Source: Candidatus Poribacteria bacterium
GTDB taxonomy: Bacteria; Poribacteria; WGA-4E; WGA-3G
Assembly: GCA_958295945.1 (NCBI GenBank)
Contig: OY282386.1
Location: forward strand, 3,652,204 to 3,716,203
Direction: 5' to 3'
DNA length: 64,000 nt
The position numbers and the translations under genes are program-made. A model generated the notes under the pieces. The model was given only the letters and a program-made list of their open reading frames with translations. It made no database searches and was not told where the DNA came from. Shown one piece after another: positions 18,996-32,232 of the stretch; the first letter of the stretch is position 1, and each line of letters starts with the position of its first letter.

Positions 18996-19289
18996 ATGAA
19001 CATCTACGTTGGCAATGTGCCCTATGCAGCCACAGAAACAGACTTGGAAGAAATTTTTGAGCCGCATGGACCACTGGCATCTGTAACTATTATCCGTGAC
19101 CGCTATGATGGTCGGTCAAAAGGGTATGGATTTGTTGAGATGGAAAACCAAGAAGACGGTGAACGCGCGATTGAAGCTCTTGACGGTCAAGAAATAATGG
19201 GTCGTCCATTGAAAGTCAATCCAGCACGTCCACGCGAACGTCGCTCAGAACCCCGATACCAAAACCGAAGCCGCTACGAAGAAGAGTAA
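18996..19289 (+). CDS. RRM-type RNA-binding protein
   Basis: RNA-recognition-motif protein of 97 aa, similar to the single-RRM proteins of cyanobacteria and other bacteria. RNP2 is IYVGNV at residues 3-8 and RNP1 is KGYGFVEM near residue 40, both with the aromatic RNA-contacting residues. A basic Arg-rich tail (ARPRERRSEPRYQNRSRYEEE pattern, last about 20 residues) follows the domain. The ATG at 18996 has AAAAGGAG upstream; longer in-frame starts lack one. It is monocistronic, with a consensus promoter, a long leader and terminator-like palindromes behind. The likely role is an RNA chaperone. Confidence 0.93.
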   Translation: MNIYVGNVPYAATETDLEEIFEPHGPLASVTIIRDRYDGRSKGYGFVEMENQEDGERAIEALDGQEIMGRPLKVNPARPRERRSEPRYQNRSRYEEE

Positions 19290-23003: not shown

Positions 23004-23706
23004 ATAATTATGTCCTTCAGTTCAATTCTACAAGCATTTTTTTGTAGCACAAACTGCCAGTTTGTGTGGAATTCGCTTCATTTCTAACAAGAAGTAATGA
23101 GACAGAATAAATAGATATGGTATTATTATAGTGAATTATAAATATATAGTCCAGTTTAGAATTAAGAAGACATTTCAATGCACTTGCAAGCACCACAAGG
23201 CCCGTAGGGGCGAGGTTTCCTCGCCCTCTGAGACGTGTCCTATTAATTGTCCATTCCACTATAAATAGATATGGTATTATTAAATAGACTATAGTTTGGA
23301 CAATTTCTCTCGGTTGCATACTGATATTTCCAGCATTTTCAATATTTTGTGAGTTTTCAATAGGATAATAACTTGACGAAAAAGTGTTAGAATATCAAAA
23401 TGAGCAGCCCCAGCGGGGCGGAATGTGTCCAGAAAAATGTGCCCCGACCAATGCAAGCCCCAGCGGGGCGACAGGTGTCCCATTGAAGAAAATTAATGCG
23501 ATAAACTCTACACACCTCTGTCACTATGCCTGTTTGACACATACCCTATATCATTATGACATACATTGTCATTGTGGCAGATATACATTTCTCTATCTAC
23601 CCATCAACATTTCGGATTACCCACCAAGAATTTCATCTGAAGGACCTTTGTCTTTGCCCATTGTTACTGCTACTGATAGATATATGTAGAGATCCATCTT
23701 GTGTTT
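23004..23706. other. Intergenic region with dispersed repeats
   Basis: It holds a CACAAACTGcCAGTTTGTG palindrome (about 23046-23064), the 119-bp repeat at 23145-23263 and two CCCCAGCGGGGCG hairpin units (about 23409-23421 and 23458-23470). Short frames here show no ribosome site or domain. Confidence 0.5.
23145..23263. mobile_element. 119-bp dispersed element, copy 1
   Basis: Nearly identical to 32083-32201. The ends show a degenerate inverted repeat (tatagt ... aattaagaagaca against tgtcctattaatt ... actata), and the centre is a GGGCGAGG/CCTCGCCC hairpin. No coding capacity; probably a MITE. Confidence 0.75.
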
Positions 23707-23722
23707 TGGCATCATACTTGCT
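23707..23722 (+). promoter_or_regulatory. Sigma-54-type promoter, distal copy, upstream of hsp20
   Basis: TGGCAT, five bases (catac), TTGCT: a GG at -24 and a GC at -12 separated by exactly ten bases, matching the RpoN consensus TGGCAC-N5-TTGCW with one change. It lies 120 bases before the Hsp20 ATG. Confidence 0.55.
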
Positions 23723-23758
23723 CATATACAAAATAGTTAGAATTTACTGAGCAAAGGT

Positions 23759-23774
23759 TGGCATAGAAATTGCT
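23759..23774 (+). promoter_or_regulatory. Sigma-54-type promoter, proximal copy, upstream of hsp20
   Basis: TGGCAT, five bases (agaaa), TTGCT, with the same 16-base spacing as the copy 52 bases upstream. Transcription would begin about 40 bases before the ATG at 23827. No CIRCE or sigma-32-like site was seen. Confidence 0.6.
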
Positions 23775-23826: not shown

Positions 23827-24279
23827 ATGAATAATTTGATGACACGCAAACCAATCGGTAATCTCTTCAACCTTCACAACGAGATGGGCAGACTATTTGG
23901 AGACCTACTTTCCTCTCAAGACAGTGATGTGAAAACAGAAAGTGCTTCCTGGGTGCCTACGGTTGACATTACTGAGACAGAAAACGACTATGAAATACAT
24001 GCTGAACTTCCTGGTGTCAAGGAGAGCGATATAAACGTCTCTGTAACCGATAACCTACTTACAATCAAGGGTGAGAAACAAGCAGAAGAGAAGACTGATG
24101 AGAAGAATATCCATCGTGTTGAAAGACGGTACGGTAGTTTCCAAAGAAGTTTCACGCTACCCCGTCAAGTGGATACCACACAAATCAAGGCTGGATATAA
24201 GAATGGTATTTTGACTCTAACCATTCCAAAGGTAGAAGAGGCAAAACCCACTGAAATCCCGATTTCAACTGACGCTTAA
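23827..24279 (+). CDS. Small heat shock protein, Hsp20/alpha-crystallin family
   Basis: ATP-independent holdase chaperone (150 aa). The alpha-crystallin domain occupies about residues 40-140: WVPTVDITETENDYEIHAELPGV, LTIKGEK, RRYGSFQRSFTLP and the conserved GILTLTIPK (A-x-x-x-n-G-v-L motif). A short C-terminal extension carries EIPIS, an I-x-I-type anchoring motif. The start has AAAAGGAG upstream. It is first of two adjacent hsp20 genes (93-base gap), downstream of two sigma-54-like promoters. Confidence 0.95.
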   Translation: MNNLMTRKPIGNLFNLHNEMGRLFGDLLSSQDSDVKTESASWVPTVDITETENDYEIHAELPGVKESDINVSVTDNLLTIKGEKQAEEKTDEKNIHRVERRYGSFQRSFTLPRQVDTTQIKAGYKNGILTLTIPKVEEAKPTEIPISTDA

Positions 24280-24371: not shown

Positions 24372-24827
24372 ATGACTTATTTAACCTTACGCAGACCGGT
24401 AGCAACCCCATTCAGGTTTTTCAACGCACCTTTCACATTTCATCGTCCATTATCAGTGACAGGTGAAAACAAATGGAAACCCTCGGCTGACATAACCGAA
24501 ACGGATGATAACTACGAAGTTCGTACTGAACTCCCCGGTGTTTCCAAAGACGATGTCCAAATCTCTGTCAAAGACGGTCTCTTATCTATCAAAGGTGAAA
24601 AACGGCAGGAAAATATGGACGATAGTAAGAATTACAAACGGATTGAAAGACGATACGGCACTTTTGAACGGAACTTTACACTCCCTCCCAAAGTTAAAGC
24701 AGACAATATCAATGCAAAATTCAACGATGGGGTGTTGACCGTTTCTATCCCAAAACCGGAAGAAGTAAAACCGAAAGAAATTCCGATCACTACTGAAACG
24801 GTTGTGGATGTCCCTGAAGAAAACTAA
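24372..24827 (+). CDS. Small heat shock protein, Hsp20 family (second copy)
   Basis: Paralogue of the preceding gene (151 aa from the ATG at 24372 with GGAG upstream; a longer in-frame start at 24291 lacks one). It contains the alpha-crystallin domain (WKPSADITETDDNYEVRTEL, LSIKGEK, RRYGTFERNFTLP, GVLTVSIPK) and the I-P-I tail (EIPIT). The N-terminal arm differs (TLRRPVATPFRFFNAPF), as is usual in this family. Probably co-transcribed with the upstream copy and able to co-assemble with it. Confidence 0.95.
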   Translation: MTYLTLRRPVATPFRFFNAPFTFHRPLSVTGENKWKPSADITETDDNYEVRTELPGVSKDDVQISVKDGLLSIKGEKRQENMDDSKNYKRIERRYGTFERNFTLPPKVKADNINAKFNDGVLTVSIPKPEEVKPKEIPITTETVVDVPEEN

Positions 24828-25490: not shown

Positions 25491-26999
25491 TTAGTCGTTT
25501 GAAACAATCACGGTATAACTTACCTCATAAATAGTCGTACCATCTCCATCATACACATAAGCCGTGATCACATAATCACCACTCACGTCACTAGGGAACG
25601 TGTAGGTCATTGAGGCAGTGGTTGTGTTACCATCCCCAAAGTCTGTCTCTACATTCCTGCCATACCCAGACTCACTCGGAGACTTCACATACCAATACAC
25701 AGAACTATATGCAGAAGATGCACTAAAGTTCGCAGTGTGACTATGACCAGGAGTTGCATAATACGATCCAGATGCCGGAGATACACTTGCTGGGGAAGCG
25801 GTAGACGTACTGCTACTCGGTGGAGACGCGGTTGATGTACTGCTACTCGGTAGAGACACCGTAACCGTATAACTCGTTTGATACGTTGAGTTATCACCAC
25901 CATATACATACGCAGTTATGACATAATCGCCAGAAACACCACTCGGAAAGGAATAGCTTAACTGCGCCGTCGTCGTTGTGCTACTATCACCATAGTCCGT
26001 ATCTACATTCGTTCCTAATCCAGATTCACTCGGTGATTTCACATACCAATACACAGAACTATAAGCTTGATCCGTCGTAAAGTTTGCCTCATGGCCTGTA
26101 CCAGCTTCCGCGGTGTAGCTACCATCAGAGGACGATAACGAATACAGCGGATCGGGAGCAGGGGATGGATCAGGAGTCGACGGATCAGGAGCATAAATTT
26201 CTTGTGCTTGCTGGTTGCCTTGCTGCGCATTATCATTCTCCATGTCGGTATTTGCCTCTGCAGACTCTACTGTAGTAGAAGCAGCGTTGATCGCTTGTCC
26301 GGAAGCTGCGGCATAAGGATCAAACAATCCTTCTATCTCGTCATCGGTATAGTTCCCATCACCATTGGGATCCTCTTTTGTCTTCTCTATTGCCGCACTA
26401 TCGGAAAGGTTCATAGTTTGAGCATTTCTTCCAAAAAGCCTAAATCCTAAAATAGAAAAGCCGGTCTCTGAAACAATTCCTATTTTTGCAGCTGCAGTAT
26501 AATATATTGCAGATGTGTCATCAGGCACACGGATTTCTCCAGCATTTTCTTCTGCGTGGTTGTCGATGTAGTATTGAATCTGATCTAGCTCGATATACTT
26601 GGGGGTACCGTCGGCATCCATTATGTATACTTGACCGTCAGCAAGCGTCCCCCGAGACACACCCACGCTTGATCCGCGCGTTGTGTTTTTATCTGCGACA
26701 CCCTTGATTTGTCCAAAACCATCATAATTATGAAGTTTTGCCCCTTTTTTTCCGAGGCATTCCATTGTTACAGAACTGCTCACCTCACTTTTAGCTCTGG
26801 ATTCAGATAAGTCAGTGATTGTGCACGAAGCTGATACCGTTATAGGATTGTCTGCATCCCCATTGTCTCTGTCAACATCGATGTCAACTAGTATATGAGG
26901 ATACGTGCGCGACAGAGCAGTATCAGCGGGAAATACAACTCCTATATGTCCGAAACACTGTCCACATAGCACAATCAACAAAATCATCATTCTTTTCAT
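25491..26999 (-). CDS. Secreted protein with two Ig/PKD-like repeats
   Basis: Unassigned secreted protein of 502 aa. The signal peptide is residues 1-17. The N-terminal half has no recognised fold; it includes an EF-hand-like loop (DPNGDGNYTDDEI, about residues 210-222). The C-terminal half has two beta-sandwich repeats of about 85 residues, each with YSSVYWYVKSPSESG, a FPS-VSGDYVITAYVY core and YTV-VS end, joined by a Ser/Thr/Pro-rich linker (STSTASPPSSSTSTASP). These resemble PKD/Ig-like modules of adhesins. AGGAG precedes the ATG. It lies four bases after the anchored protein upstream, so the two are co-expressed and probably act together. Confidence 0.72.
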   Translation of the reverse strand: MKRMMILLIVLCGQCFGHIGVVFPADTALSRTYPHILVDIDVDRDNGDADNPITVSASCTITDLSESRAKSEVSSSVTMECLGKKGAKLHNYDGFGQIKGVADKNTTRGSSVGVSRGTLADGQVYIMDADGTPKYIELDQIQYYIDNHAEENAGEIRVPDDTSAIYYTAAAKIGIVSETGFSILGFRLFGRNAQTMNLSDSAAIEKTKEDPNGDGNYTDDEIEGLFDPYAAASGQAINAASTTVESAEANTDMENDNAQQGNQQAQEIYAPDPSTPDPSPAPDPLYSLSSSDGSYTAEAGTGHEANFTTDQAYSSVYWYVKSPSESGLGTNVDTDYGDSSTTTTAQLSYSFPSGVSGDYVITAYVYGGDNSTYQTSYTVTVSLPSSSTSTASPPSSSTSTASPASVSPASGSYYATPGHSHTANFSASSAYSSVYWYVKSPSESGYGRNVETDFGDGNTTTASMTYTFPSDVSGDYVITAYVYDGDGTTIYEVSYTVIVSND

Positions 27000-27002
27000 T
27001 TT

Positions 27003-27941
27003 CTACTCCTTATATTTCATATTGTAACGTTCATATTGAATCGGTTGAAGGGTGAGCGGGTTAATGCTATAATCCCATCCACCAAGCCGTTTTAGTTCCT
27101 CATCAGACGTGTTATAAACATCAATAGTAACAGTTTTTTCTGGATTACGAACATTGCTACCACGGTAAAAACCGCTTTTCCTCTCCCACGGTAGCCCCTC
27201 TTCAGTTAAGCCTTTATAGACAAAATAATACTTTGTTTCACCTTTCAAGAAAAAAGGACGGCCATCGGCAAGACGAAAAAAGTTCCATTCGGGTTCTAAC
27301 TCTCCCATCTCAATACGCGAGGTCGTATGAGTTTTGTTTTCTTCACCTGGAGGCGGTTCTTCCCCGAACAAGTTCATCTTCATGACTTCAGGAAATGCCC
27401 ATGTCTGTTCATACAGCCAATCAATACGGCTAAACGCGTAACCGGAAAGCGGGGTGTAACCGAGTTCTGCTTCTGCTATAACACGATACATTTTTTCGTA
27501 AGCAATGTACTGTGGCCATATTTCTGATAGCGGACGTTTCGGATTGTAATCACGAACAATCTCTTCGAGGATATCCTTATAACGTAGGGCTTCCTCAGCA
27601 GACCATTCGTAGTCTTCAGGTTTTGGGTCTTCAAGTCCGTGATAATGTCCATTGACCCATTCTGGAGGGAGTTTTAGGTGATCGGGAATATTATCTGGAA
27701 CCGACGGGGGCGGCATTTCGTAAGCCGGAATTAGAGCCTTAAAATAACCTGGTTTGTGTGCTTCATCGCCATGCCCACCTCCACCCGGTGAGGCACCGGG
27801 TCGCGGTTGTCTTTGTGTCTCTACGACAACCTCTGGATTGTTATTCTTTTCAAACAGTTTATCTGATTGCAAGTAGAACACGAATGCACCGATGAGTAAA
27901 ATTATGAGGGTTGCGATCCCCCAATACATTTTGCGTTTCAT
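27003..27941 (-). CDS. Membrane-anchored protein of unknown function
   Basis: 312 aa, not recognised. One N-terminal membrane segment (residues about 6-24, GIATLIILLIGAFVFYL) is followed by a Pro/Gly/His-rich stretch (RPGASPGGGGHGDEAHKPG) and a mixed domain rich in Trp, Tyr and Pro. Because the N-terminus is basic and the rest polar, the body is probably periplasmic. GGAG precedes the ATG. It is the first gene of a two-gene minus-strand operon with the Ig-like protein (three-base gap). A joint surface role is an inference. Confidence 0.6.
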   Translation of the reverse strand: MKRKMYWGIATLIILLIGAFVFYLQSDKLFEKNNNPEVVVETQRQPRPGASPGGGGHGDEAHKPGYFKALIPAYEMPPPSVPDNIPDHLKLPPEWVNGHYHGLEDPKPEDYEWSAEEALRYKDILEEIVRDYNPKRPLSEIWPQYIAYEKMYRVIAEAELGYTPLSGYAFSRIDWLYEQTWAFPEVMKMNLFGEEPPPGEENKTHTTSRIEMGELEPEWNFFRLADGRPFFLKGETKYYFVYKGLTEEGLPWERKSGFYRGSNVRNPEKTVTIDVYNTSDEELKRLGGWDYSINPLTLQPIQYERYNMKYKE

Positions 27942-28243: not shown

Positions 28244-28857
28244 AGAGAACTCTTTTGGTCCAATGAAGTCATTATATTTATTTTCCAAAGGAGTTCTCTA
28301 ATGTGTATTTTAACACTATTTTGCAAAATTGACGACTTTTTTAGCTTATAAGGCATTTCTGGAATCGCGATCACTTCAGAATGATAAACCGATTGAAACA
28401 CGCGGGTGTCCGCGCAGTGGACACGACAGTGAGGTCATGACCATCATCATTGCCTTCCATCAAAGTGGGTATCGTACGTTCAAACATTTTTATGAAAAAC
28501 ATGTCTGCGTCTATTGGTGTGCTGAGTTTCCAAATCTTGTCAGTTATTCTCGGTTCGTGCAGCTCAAAAAAGAGGTGCTGCACCTCTTGACGATTTTTCT
28601 TGATGTGCACCTCGGAGAATGTCCTGGCACCTCTTTTGTCCATTCCACGCGTCTGCGCGTGTGTGATAACAAGCGGATTTCAGCACATCGTGCCATCTTA
28701 TATGGAATGGGCTGAATATGCGGGGCGTTCAAAAACCTCTATGGGCTGGTCCTTTGGCTATAAACTTCACCTGATCATCAATGAGAAAGGCGAAGTTTTA
28801 AGTCCTCAACTCACATCGGGCAACACAGATGACCGAAAACCCGGACCCGATTTATAA
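28211..28857 (+). pseudogene. Degenerate, truncated IS982-family transposase
   Basis: The frame from ATG 28301 starts MCILTLFCKIDDFF, the usual IS982 beginning, but stops at 28349. Homology then continues in other frames: ESRSLQNDKPIETRGCPRS, GYRTFKHFYEKHVC, LVSYSRFVQLKKEVLHLL, then STRLRVCDNKRISAHR and KTSMGWSFGYKLHLIINEKGE up to GNTDDRKP. The second half of the transposase is missing, cut off by the MITE beginning near 28853. At least two frameshifts make it inactive. The left IS end is near 28211. Confidence 0.85.
28244..28299 (+). promoter_or_regulatory. Hairpin sequestering the IS982 transposase ribosome site
   Basis: AGAGAACTCTTTTGG (28244-28258) pairs with CCAAAGGAGTTCTCT (28285-28299) with one T-G wobble. 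The AAAGGAG ribosome site lies in the right arm, one base before the ATG at 28301. This would block translation, a known way for ISs to avoid activation by outside transcription. Confidence 0.65.
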
Positions 28858-28958
28858 TAGAAAACTTCGCATTTTTGTCCCACAAACTTTCAGTTTGTGC
28901 TGTCCTTCAAGATATTCTTAACGAATGTTAATGGGATGAACATTTATAGAAATGGTAT
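28853..28958. mobile_element. MITE copy truncating the IS982 remnant
   Basis: Similar over its length to 30558-30671 (taatagaaaac, gtgctgtccttcaaga, cttaacgaatgttaatggga). The right end TAGAAATGGTAT is intact; the left end is degenerate and fused to the IS982 relic. Confidence 0.65.
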
Positions 28959-29030
28959 GATATTACGAACAAATTGCAATTTCAGTGGTCTTATCATTTG
29001 AAAGCATAAAACAAATTAAGGAGAATTATT

Positions 29031-29663
29031 TTGAGAAGATCACAACAGAACGGACCAAGAGGAGAATTTCAAAATCCACGTCCTAACAATCACAGAAAAG
29101 GACGCGGTAGAAGACATCCTGAAGGAGAACGACAAGGTCCTCCACATCAGAAAAGACGAAACCGTAGAAGGAACCCCCAAGCAGGTCATAGAAACCGAGA
29201 CAATCATCCACCGAGAAGAAGAAATCGACAACGTTCACCACAACATCCAATGAGAGAACACTTCCCACATCACAACAGAATGCAAGAAGGTTTTGGTGGA
29301 GAAACACCATCTCAACGGAGAAGAAGAGGCGGATTTAGACCTATTGCTGGTTTTACCGGTTATGATGACAGGTTTGAGATTAAAGTTGAGCTTCCCGGCG
29401 TTGAAGAAAAGGATATTAGGGTTGCTCTTGCAGGTAAAAGGTTGATAGTAAAAGGCAAAAAGCATCGGACGCAATCTGACGAAAATCATAACATCCGTAG
29501 ATCAGAACTGAAGTATGGAAGATTTCAACGGGCATTTCCACTGTTACCAATGGCTAACACTGATGGTATTAAGGCTAATTTTAAGGATGGTATTCTAACG
29601 ATAGTAATACCGAAGAAGGAAGAAGCAAAACCGATAGAAATACCTATCAATGCGGATGCCTAA
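29031..29663 (+). CDS. Hsp20-family protein with long arginine-rich N-terminal extension
   Basis: Third Hsp20 gene (210 aa). The start is TTG at 29031 with AAGGAG nine bases upstream. Residues about 1-105 are a low-complexity arm rich in Arg, Pro, Gln, His and Asn (clusters such as RKGRGRRHP, KRRNRRRN, PPRRRNRQR, SQRRRRGG). Residues about 106-210 are a normal alpha-crystallin domain (GYDDRFEIKVELPGV, LIVKGKK, LKYGRFQRAFPLL, GILTIVIPK) with the I-P-I tail. Usual N-terminal arms are 30-60 hydrophobic residues, so this strongly basic arm is atypical and suggests nucleic acid binding or condensation (inference). The same DNA is also open in the +1 frame for 72 codons. Confidence 0.85.
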   Translation: MRRSQQNGPRGEFQNPRPNNHRKGRGRRHPEGERQGPPHQKRRNRRRNPQAGHRNRDNHPPRRRNRQRSPQHPMREHFPHHNRMQEGFGGETPSQRRRRGGFRPIAGFTGYDDRFEIKVELPGVEEKDIRVALAGKRLIVKGKKHRTQSDENHNIRRSELKYGRFQRAFPLLPMANTDGIKANFKDGILTIVIPKKEEAKPIEIPINADA

Positions 29664-29775: not shown

Positions 29776-30453
29776 TTATCGTGTACCCTTGTCGCCAATC
29801 ATCCCAAGATAGAGCAATGCAGCAAGCACTGCACCAACACACGGTCCAACAAAGTAAAGCCACAAATCAGCATAATTTCCCGATGCAATCGCAGGTCCTA
29901 ATGTCCGTGCAGGATTAAAAGATGCTCGTGTCAAAGGGCCACCTATTAGGATGCAAGCGATCAATGATAACCCGATTGCAATTCCTGCGAAATTTCCTGC
30001 TTTCCCACTGACAGCAGTATTGAATATAGTAGTGACAAGAAAGAATGTTAGTATGATTTCAACAAAGAGACCTTGTGTTACGGAGACATTCTCCGCCAAA
30101 ATGGTAACCCCCAAATCTCCATCAGCAGGCAGTAATCCTTTTAGCACCAATGCCCCAGCAATTCCACCAGAAAACTGAACAATCCAATAGCAAATTGCAG
30201 TCATAAATCTGATCTCACCAGCCACCAAAAAACCAAGTGTTACTGCAGGATTAATATGTGTCCCTGATATATGGCCATAAGCATACACAAAAGCAATGAC
30301 CACAAACCCATGAGCAAGTGCTACACCTAATAAATTCTCAAGGGCATAAGAGTGTCCATCTAAATTTAGACCCGTTATTGCTAAAGCACCCGCACCAACA
30401 AAGATCAATGCAAATGTGCCAATAAACTCTGCAACATATTTCTCAGTATTCAT
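29776..30453 (-). CDS. Aquaporin (MIP family channel)
   Basis: Inner-membrane water or small-solute channel, 225 aa, six membrane segments. The two pore motifs are THINPAVTLG and ASFNPARTLGPA, with the selectivity-filter Arg directly after the second NPA. At the H5 filter position (His in E. coli AqpZ) the alignment by eye gives Ile (CILIGGPLTRASFNPA), and LE1 is Ala, as in plant TIP-type channels and archaeal AqpM. This predicts a wider pore than AqpZ. Monocistronic. A GAAGA ribosome site is weak. Confidence 0.93.
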   Translation of the reverse strand: MNTEKYVAEFIGTFALIFVGAGALAITGLNLDGHSYALENLLGVALAHGFVVIAFVYAYGHISGTHINPAVTLGFLVAGEIRFMTAICYWIVQFSGGIAGALVLKGLLPADGDLGVTILAENVSVTQGLFVEIILTFFLVTTIFNTAVSGKAGNFAGIAIGLSLIACILIGGPLTRASFNPARTLGPAIASGNYADLWLYFVGPCVGAVLAALLYLGMIGDKGTR

Positions 30454-30557: not shown

Positions 30558-30671
30558 ATACCATTTCTAATAGAAAACGCCCCATTTTTGTACCACAAAC
30601 TGCCAGTTTGTGCTGTCCTTCAAGAGATTCTTAACAAATGTTAATGGGATAAACATTTATAGAAATGGTAT
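30558..30671. mobile_element. 114-bp MITE with ATACCATTTCTA ends
   Basis: Perfect 12-bp inverted repeats at 30558-30569 and 30660-30671. The interior includes a CACAAACTGCCAGTTTGTG palindrome and matches 28853-28958. It lies between the sulfatase-fold gene's 3' end and the aquaporin start. Confidence 0.8.
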
Positions 30672-32047: not shown

Positions 32048-32082
32048 AATTCCCTCTATGATCTGAAAGATAGTTCTATAAT

Positions 32083-32201
32083 TATAGTAAAGTTTAGAAT
32101 TAAGAAGACATTTCAATGCACTCGCAAGTACCACAAGTCCCGTAGGGGCGAGGTTTCCTCGCCCTCTGAGGCGTGTCCTATTAATTGTCCATTCCACTAT
32201 A
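32083..32201. mobile_element. 119-bp dispersed element, copy 2
   Basis: Nearly identical to 23145-23263, differing at about seven positions. Inserted between the O-antigen-ligase-like gene and the sulfatase-fold gene, 36 bases before the latter's ATG. It may supply part of that gene's leader. Confidence 0.75.
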
Positions 32202-32232
32202 GATAGAATCCAACTAAATTATAGTCTTAAAA

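Follow-up and report, generated by a model that had tools for sequence, protein, structure and literature searches.

Small heat shock proteins (sHSPs, Hsp20) are usually thought to hold their clients by hydrophobic arms. Arginine-dependent targeting or RNA contact has been described in human HspB8 and in E. coli IbpA. Human HspB8 depends on arginines in its disordered region to enter FUS droplets and stress granules, and the alpha-crystallin domain protects the RNA-recognition motif (RRM) inside the condensates (PMC8510580). IbpA binds its own mRNA via an arginine, in a self-repressing manner (PMC10474464). We describe here an Hsp20 gene, C, of Candidatus Poribacteria, whose lineage departs from the hydrophobic-arm scheme. 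"The window" denotes the whole stretch of 64,000 nucleotides that was analysed; its features are listed in Table 1.

Table 1. Features of the Hsp20 locus, in window coordinates
Feature	Position	Strand	Remarks
Two tandem sigma-54-type sites, TGGCAY-N5-TTGC	23707..23773	+	before A-B; conserved across the family
Ordinary Hsp20 paralogue A	23827..24279	+	
Ordinary Hsp20 paralogue B	24372..24827	+	short hydrophobic arm, MTYLTLRRP..
Transposase relic	28329..28857	+	weak DDE_Tnp_1_3 match; inside insertion between A-B and C
CGAACA-N16-GTC element	28966..28990	+	conserved; putative ECF-sigma-type promoter
Shine-Dalgarno AGGAG	29019..29023	+	ahead of the TTG of C; kept in orthologues
C-type Hsp20 gene	29031..29663	+	210 aa, TTG start
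Arg-rich disordered arm, residues 1-101	29031..29333	+	
Alpha-crystallin domain and C-terminal IPI motif (I204-P205-I206)	29334..29660	+	
Aquaporin/MIP gene	29776..30453	-	conserved downstream neighbour of C

We found that C is a real, selected and lineage-restricted variant of the known Hsp20/alpha-crystallin chaperone family, and a third Hsp20 paralogue, monophyletic in origin, that accompanies two ordinary Hsp20 genes, A and B. The Pfam HSP20 profile matches residues 112-207 (E=7e-19; 68.3 bits against a cut-off of 20.8), solved sHSPs are Foldseek matches of the protein (E down to 4.5e-09), and AlphaFold2, given a 16-row alignment, predicts the alpha-crystallin sandwich with confidence (most blocks at pLDDT about 80-92). 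The C-terminal I-x-I/V motif is present as IPI, and both of its isoleucines are invariant in 16/16 C proteins. Hsp20 proteins vary in their N-terminal arm, which does not define the family, so that the non-hydrophobic arm of C does not exclude the protein from membership.

That arm combines 27% Arg with 13% Pro, 12% Gly, 10% Gln, 10% Asn and 9% His, only 4% of its residues are I, L, V, F, W or Y, and its net charge is +22. AlphaFold2 models it without secondary structure, at a mean pLDDT of about 40-47. The original prediction had proposed an arm of about 100 residues, rich in arginine, poor in hydrophobic residues and unlike the arms of normal Hsp20, and this description holds. A and B, ordinary bacterial Hsp20 proteins from the same locus, share with C the alpha-crystallin domain, the IPI tail and the locus position, but their arms measure 34-41 residues and contain 24-32% ILVFWY and 5-12% Arg, and sigma-54-type promoters lie before A-B. 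A hydrophobic client-binding arm of this kind was not found in the C proteins, whose arms contain 4-11% ILVFWY. The arm strongly favours Arg over Lys (27:2) at a regional GC content of about 43%, a bias in keeping with a role for guanidinium chemistry and not just for charge. RGG-box features, i.e. repeated RGG/RG units with aromatics, were looked for in the C arms and not found (2-8 RG, 0-1 RGG and 0-1 Tyr per arm). With Tyr and Trp almost absent and few RGG units, the arm does not have the make-up of a classical self-condensing RGG domain.

Within the phylum, chance does not account for the Arg-rich composition. A supported start is available for 91 distinct Hsp20 proteins; over the longer arm scored in this comparison, the Arg fraction is 0.21-0.28 in the 16 C-type proteins and at most 0.143 in the other 75. 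A homology search of the source genome found no second Arg-rich arm, no bacterial sHSP with a comparable arm was found in the open-licence literature, and a search for viral relatives returned none. Seemingly Arg-rich extensions in three further genomes (G054, G056 and G057) were rejected as arms, since they stem from reading frame that precedes the likely start.

A profile search for Hsp20 covered 85 genomes of the phylum, and reading of the loci identified C-type genes in 16 of the 18 genomes of the genus, this one included. The 15 orthologues, all in the same genus, match C over its full length, and none of them starts at the alpha-crystallin domain. C is not universal even within the genus: it was not detected in one genome that has A and B (G011), and another, 81% complete (G004), gave no Hsp20 match whatever. 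The 16 arms measure 77-131 residues, with 22-32% Arg and a net charge of +18 to +31. A GGAG-type Shine-Dalgarno sequence precedes the start in 16/16 C orthologues (3 TTG and 13 ATG starts), in agreement with the original prediction of a ribosome site and a TTG start in frame with the alpha-crystallin domain.

Codon-level comparison, which that prediction had proposed as a check, showed the arm to be coding and under purifying selection in the frame of C. In this frame dN was below dS in 8/8 close pairs (Nei-Gojobori; dN/dS 0.21-0.58), compared with 0.09-0.25 in the alpha-crystallin domain of the same pairs. The arm is thus faster-evolving than the domain, as disordered regions are, yet constrained. 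Frame +1, which contains an other-frame stretch open from 29035 to 29250 with a sub-threshold Pfam match only, carries stops in the compared pairs and has dN/dS >1 in 6/8, and is not conserved. In frame +2, dN is below dS in most pairs, but this frame cannot be coding because it contains 6-16 stops per pair. Neither of the two outcomes that the original prediction had named as refuting it, orthologues beginning at the alpha-crystallin domain or conservation in the alternative frame, was seen. Composition, furthermore, is held while the sequence diverges. A neutral simulation started from the C arm gave Arg 0.18 and hydrophobics 0.185 at 40% amino-acid identity, against 0.22-0.32 and 0.04-0.11 in the 16 observed arms, and the simulated arm sheds Arg and gains hydrophobics well before reaching the observed divergence.

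All C proteins form one clade (support 95/92) in a maximum-likelihood tree of 62 alpha-crystallin domains, which has few columns and is midpoint-rooted, so that it does not fix the parent paralogue of C. The stretch of the arm at residues ~72-95 is similar to the canonical N-terminus of Hsp20 in a decayed form (PMREHFPHHNRMQEGFGG against PIGNLFNLHNEMGRLFGD; 4/1000 shuffles score as well). In 5/16 C proteins, this one included, the arm end aligns with the canonical A-type N-terminus, e.g. PMRDIFLHHNRMRHVFDRRF against PIGNLFNLHNEMGRLFGDLL, and these five alignments are equalled or exceeded by only 1 to 32 of 1000 shuffles; in the remaining C proteins this part is lost or unrecognisable. Judged from this resemblance, the Arg-rich part probably arose as an extension ahead of an ordinary arm, which later decayed, rather than as a plain replacement of it.

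The conserved order in the genus is a uridine-kinase-like gene, A, B and C, followed by the aquaporin and a sulfatase on the other strand; B is absent in three species (G015, G006 and G012). In three sister genera, most loci comprise the kinase, at least one ordinary Hsp20 and the aquaporin, without C. A 4.2-kb insertion with a transposase relic parts C from A-B in the source genome. Two ORFs of 502 and 312 aa lie between B and C on the reverse strand (25491-27941); the larger has internal repeats and the smaller has no Pfam match. In one genome (G008), C and the aquaporin are found on a contig separate from A-B and the sulfatase (loci L037 and L038), and for this reason they seem to have moved as a unit. 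Several repeats were also observed in the window. A 109-nt direct repeat (91%; 28850-28958 and 30563-30671) flanks C together with the aquaporin. It includes a palindromic unit of 28 nt (like TTTTTGTAGCACAAACTGCCAGTTTGTG), which occurs at six places and resembles a miniature mobile element. A dispersed 134-nt repeat, 92% identical, is located at 23136-23269 and 32074-32207.

The only RRM-domain protein of the genome, which has a short Arg-rich tail, is encoded at 18996-19286, ~10 kb upstream of C, and lies close to the Hsp20 genes in most members of the genus. We considered this protein as a specific client of C and rejected it, since it is kept at the locus in the G011 species without C and sits elsewhere in the examined sister genera.

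The motif TGGCAY-N5-TTGC, which is the sigma-54 consensus, has two matches in the window, both before A, against 0.17 expected; it recurs upstream of A in nearly all family members examined, mostly as two sites in tandem. The source genome encodes one RpoN. No sigma-54-type site was seen upstream of C. Comparison of the upstream regions shows that C, unlike A-B, has its own conserved promoter-like element, GAACA-N16/17-GTC, which lies 63-94 bases before the start in 16/16 C orthologues, in an otherwise divergent stretch (mean 0.07 and maximum 1 in shuffles). GAAC and GTC at this spacing represent the layout of ECF-sigma promoters, and the source genome contains 42 matches to Sigma70_r4_2, the family to which region 4 of ECF sigma factors belongs. 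We infer that the element may be an ECF-sigma-type promoter. A genome scan for the GAACA-type pattern gave 10 hits versus 13 for the reversed control, so the element alone defines no regulon.

Taken together, the retention of the arm in 16 of 18 genomes and the conserved promoter-like element of C suggest that the arm may steer C to RNA or another negatively charged target. The reading we favour, tentatively and at somewhat less than an even chance, is that C is a genus-specific duplicated Hsp20 whose Arg-rich arms bind polyanions, most likely RNA or ribonucleoprotein (RNP), under ECF-sensed stress. An ordinary Hsp20 would have been duplicated, and a disordered Arg-rich extension would have grown ahead of the old N-terminus. 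Oligomers of C, built via the alpha-crystallin domain and the IPI motif, could then display many Arg-rich arms, which would engage polyanions, RNA or RNP in the first place, through multivalent Arg contacts. Such a tether may place the chaperone domain beside clients that unfold at RNA or RNP when an ECF-type sigma factor senses stress. By analogy, C may plausibly be targeted to nucleic acid or to RNP condensates, and the composition of the arm would be compatible with nucleic-acid binding and phase separation. The genome neighbours of C, an aquaporin and a sulfatase rather than RNA genes, count against an RNA or RNP target. A narrower version, in which C is an sHSP dedicated to RNP condensates or the nucleoid and activated by its own ECF stress sigma factor, evolved independently of animal HspB8, appears unlikely to us.

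Among the alternatives, an entropic, charge-repelling bristle, which would keep oligomers small and sHSP-client complexes soluble without any specific partner, is a possible though rather unlikely explanation. Low hydrophobicity, disorder and high net charge would suffice for such a function, and variation in arm length, as between 77 and 131 residues, is expected if only bulk properties count. However, a plain bristle needs no arginine, a sticky residue, and Arg is kept in C rather than Lys or Glu. The arm could also bind a polyanion other than nucleic acid, such as polyphosphate, an anionic membrane or an acidic protein partner, since a polycation need not select nucleic acid. Membranes are a site of action for some bacterial sHSPs, but C lacks the hydrophobic or amphipathic elements that membrane arms typically have and no partner gene was found at the C locus, and we regard this explanation as quite improbable.

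Still less probable is a co-chaperone role, in which C would enter mixed assemblies with A and B via the IPI motif shared by all three and alter their sHSP-client aggregates, as IbpB does for IbpA. The A-B-C tandem locus of most genus members and the retention of the IPI motif in C would agree with this, but the promoter-like element of C is its own and differs from those of A-B, and C lies apart from A-B, on another contig in G008 and at a distance of 4.2 kb in the source genome. Finally, an artefact or drift, in the form of a wrong start, an overprinted other-frame gene (for which the stretch open at 29035-29250 might speak) or unconstrained low-complexity sequence, is highly improbable in view of the conserved starts, the in-frame purifying selection, the stops in the other frames and an arm composition held beyond neutral expectation.

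The preferred reading of C, as an Hsp20 steered to RNA or RNP by its arm, can be set against three described systems. Disordered Arg-rich regions also occur in bacterial RNP proteins such as RNase E (BR-bodies, PMC10412687), which differ from C in being RNA enzymes rather than chaperones. IbpA is, like C, a bacterial Hsp20, and has an arginine-dependent RNA contact, but the arginine concerned, R93, belongs to the alpha-crystallin domain, and IbpA is not described as having an Arg-rich arm (PMC10474464). In HspB8, as in C, a disordered Arg-bearing region is joined to an alpha-crystallin domain, with 10 Arg in the predicted IDR of HspB8 compared with 27 Arg in the 101 residues of the C arm, which is much the richer in Arg (Boczek et al. 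2021, PMC8510580). This proposed likeness is one of mechanism and not of family. C offers a natural case in which to ask whether an IDR is by itself sufficient to retarget a bacterial chaperone, and, if its target is RNP, it would represent convergence with HspB8.
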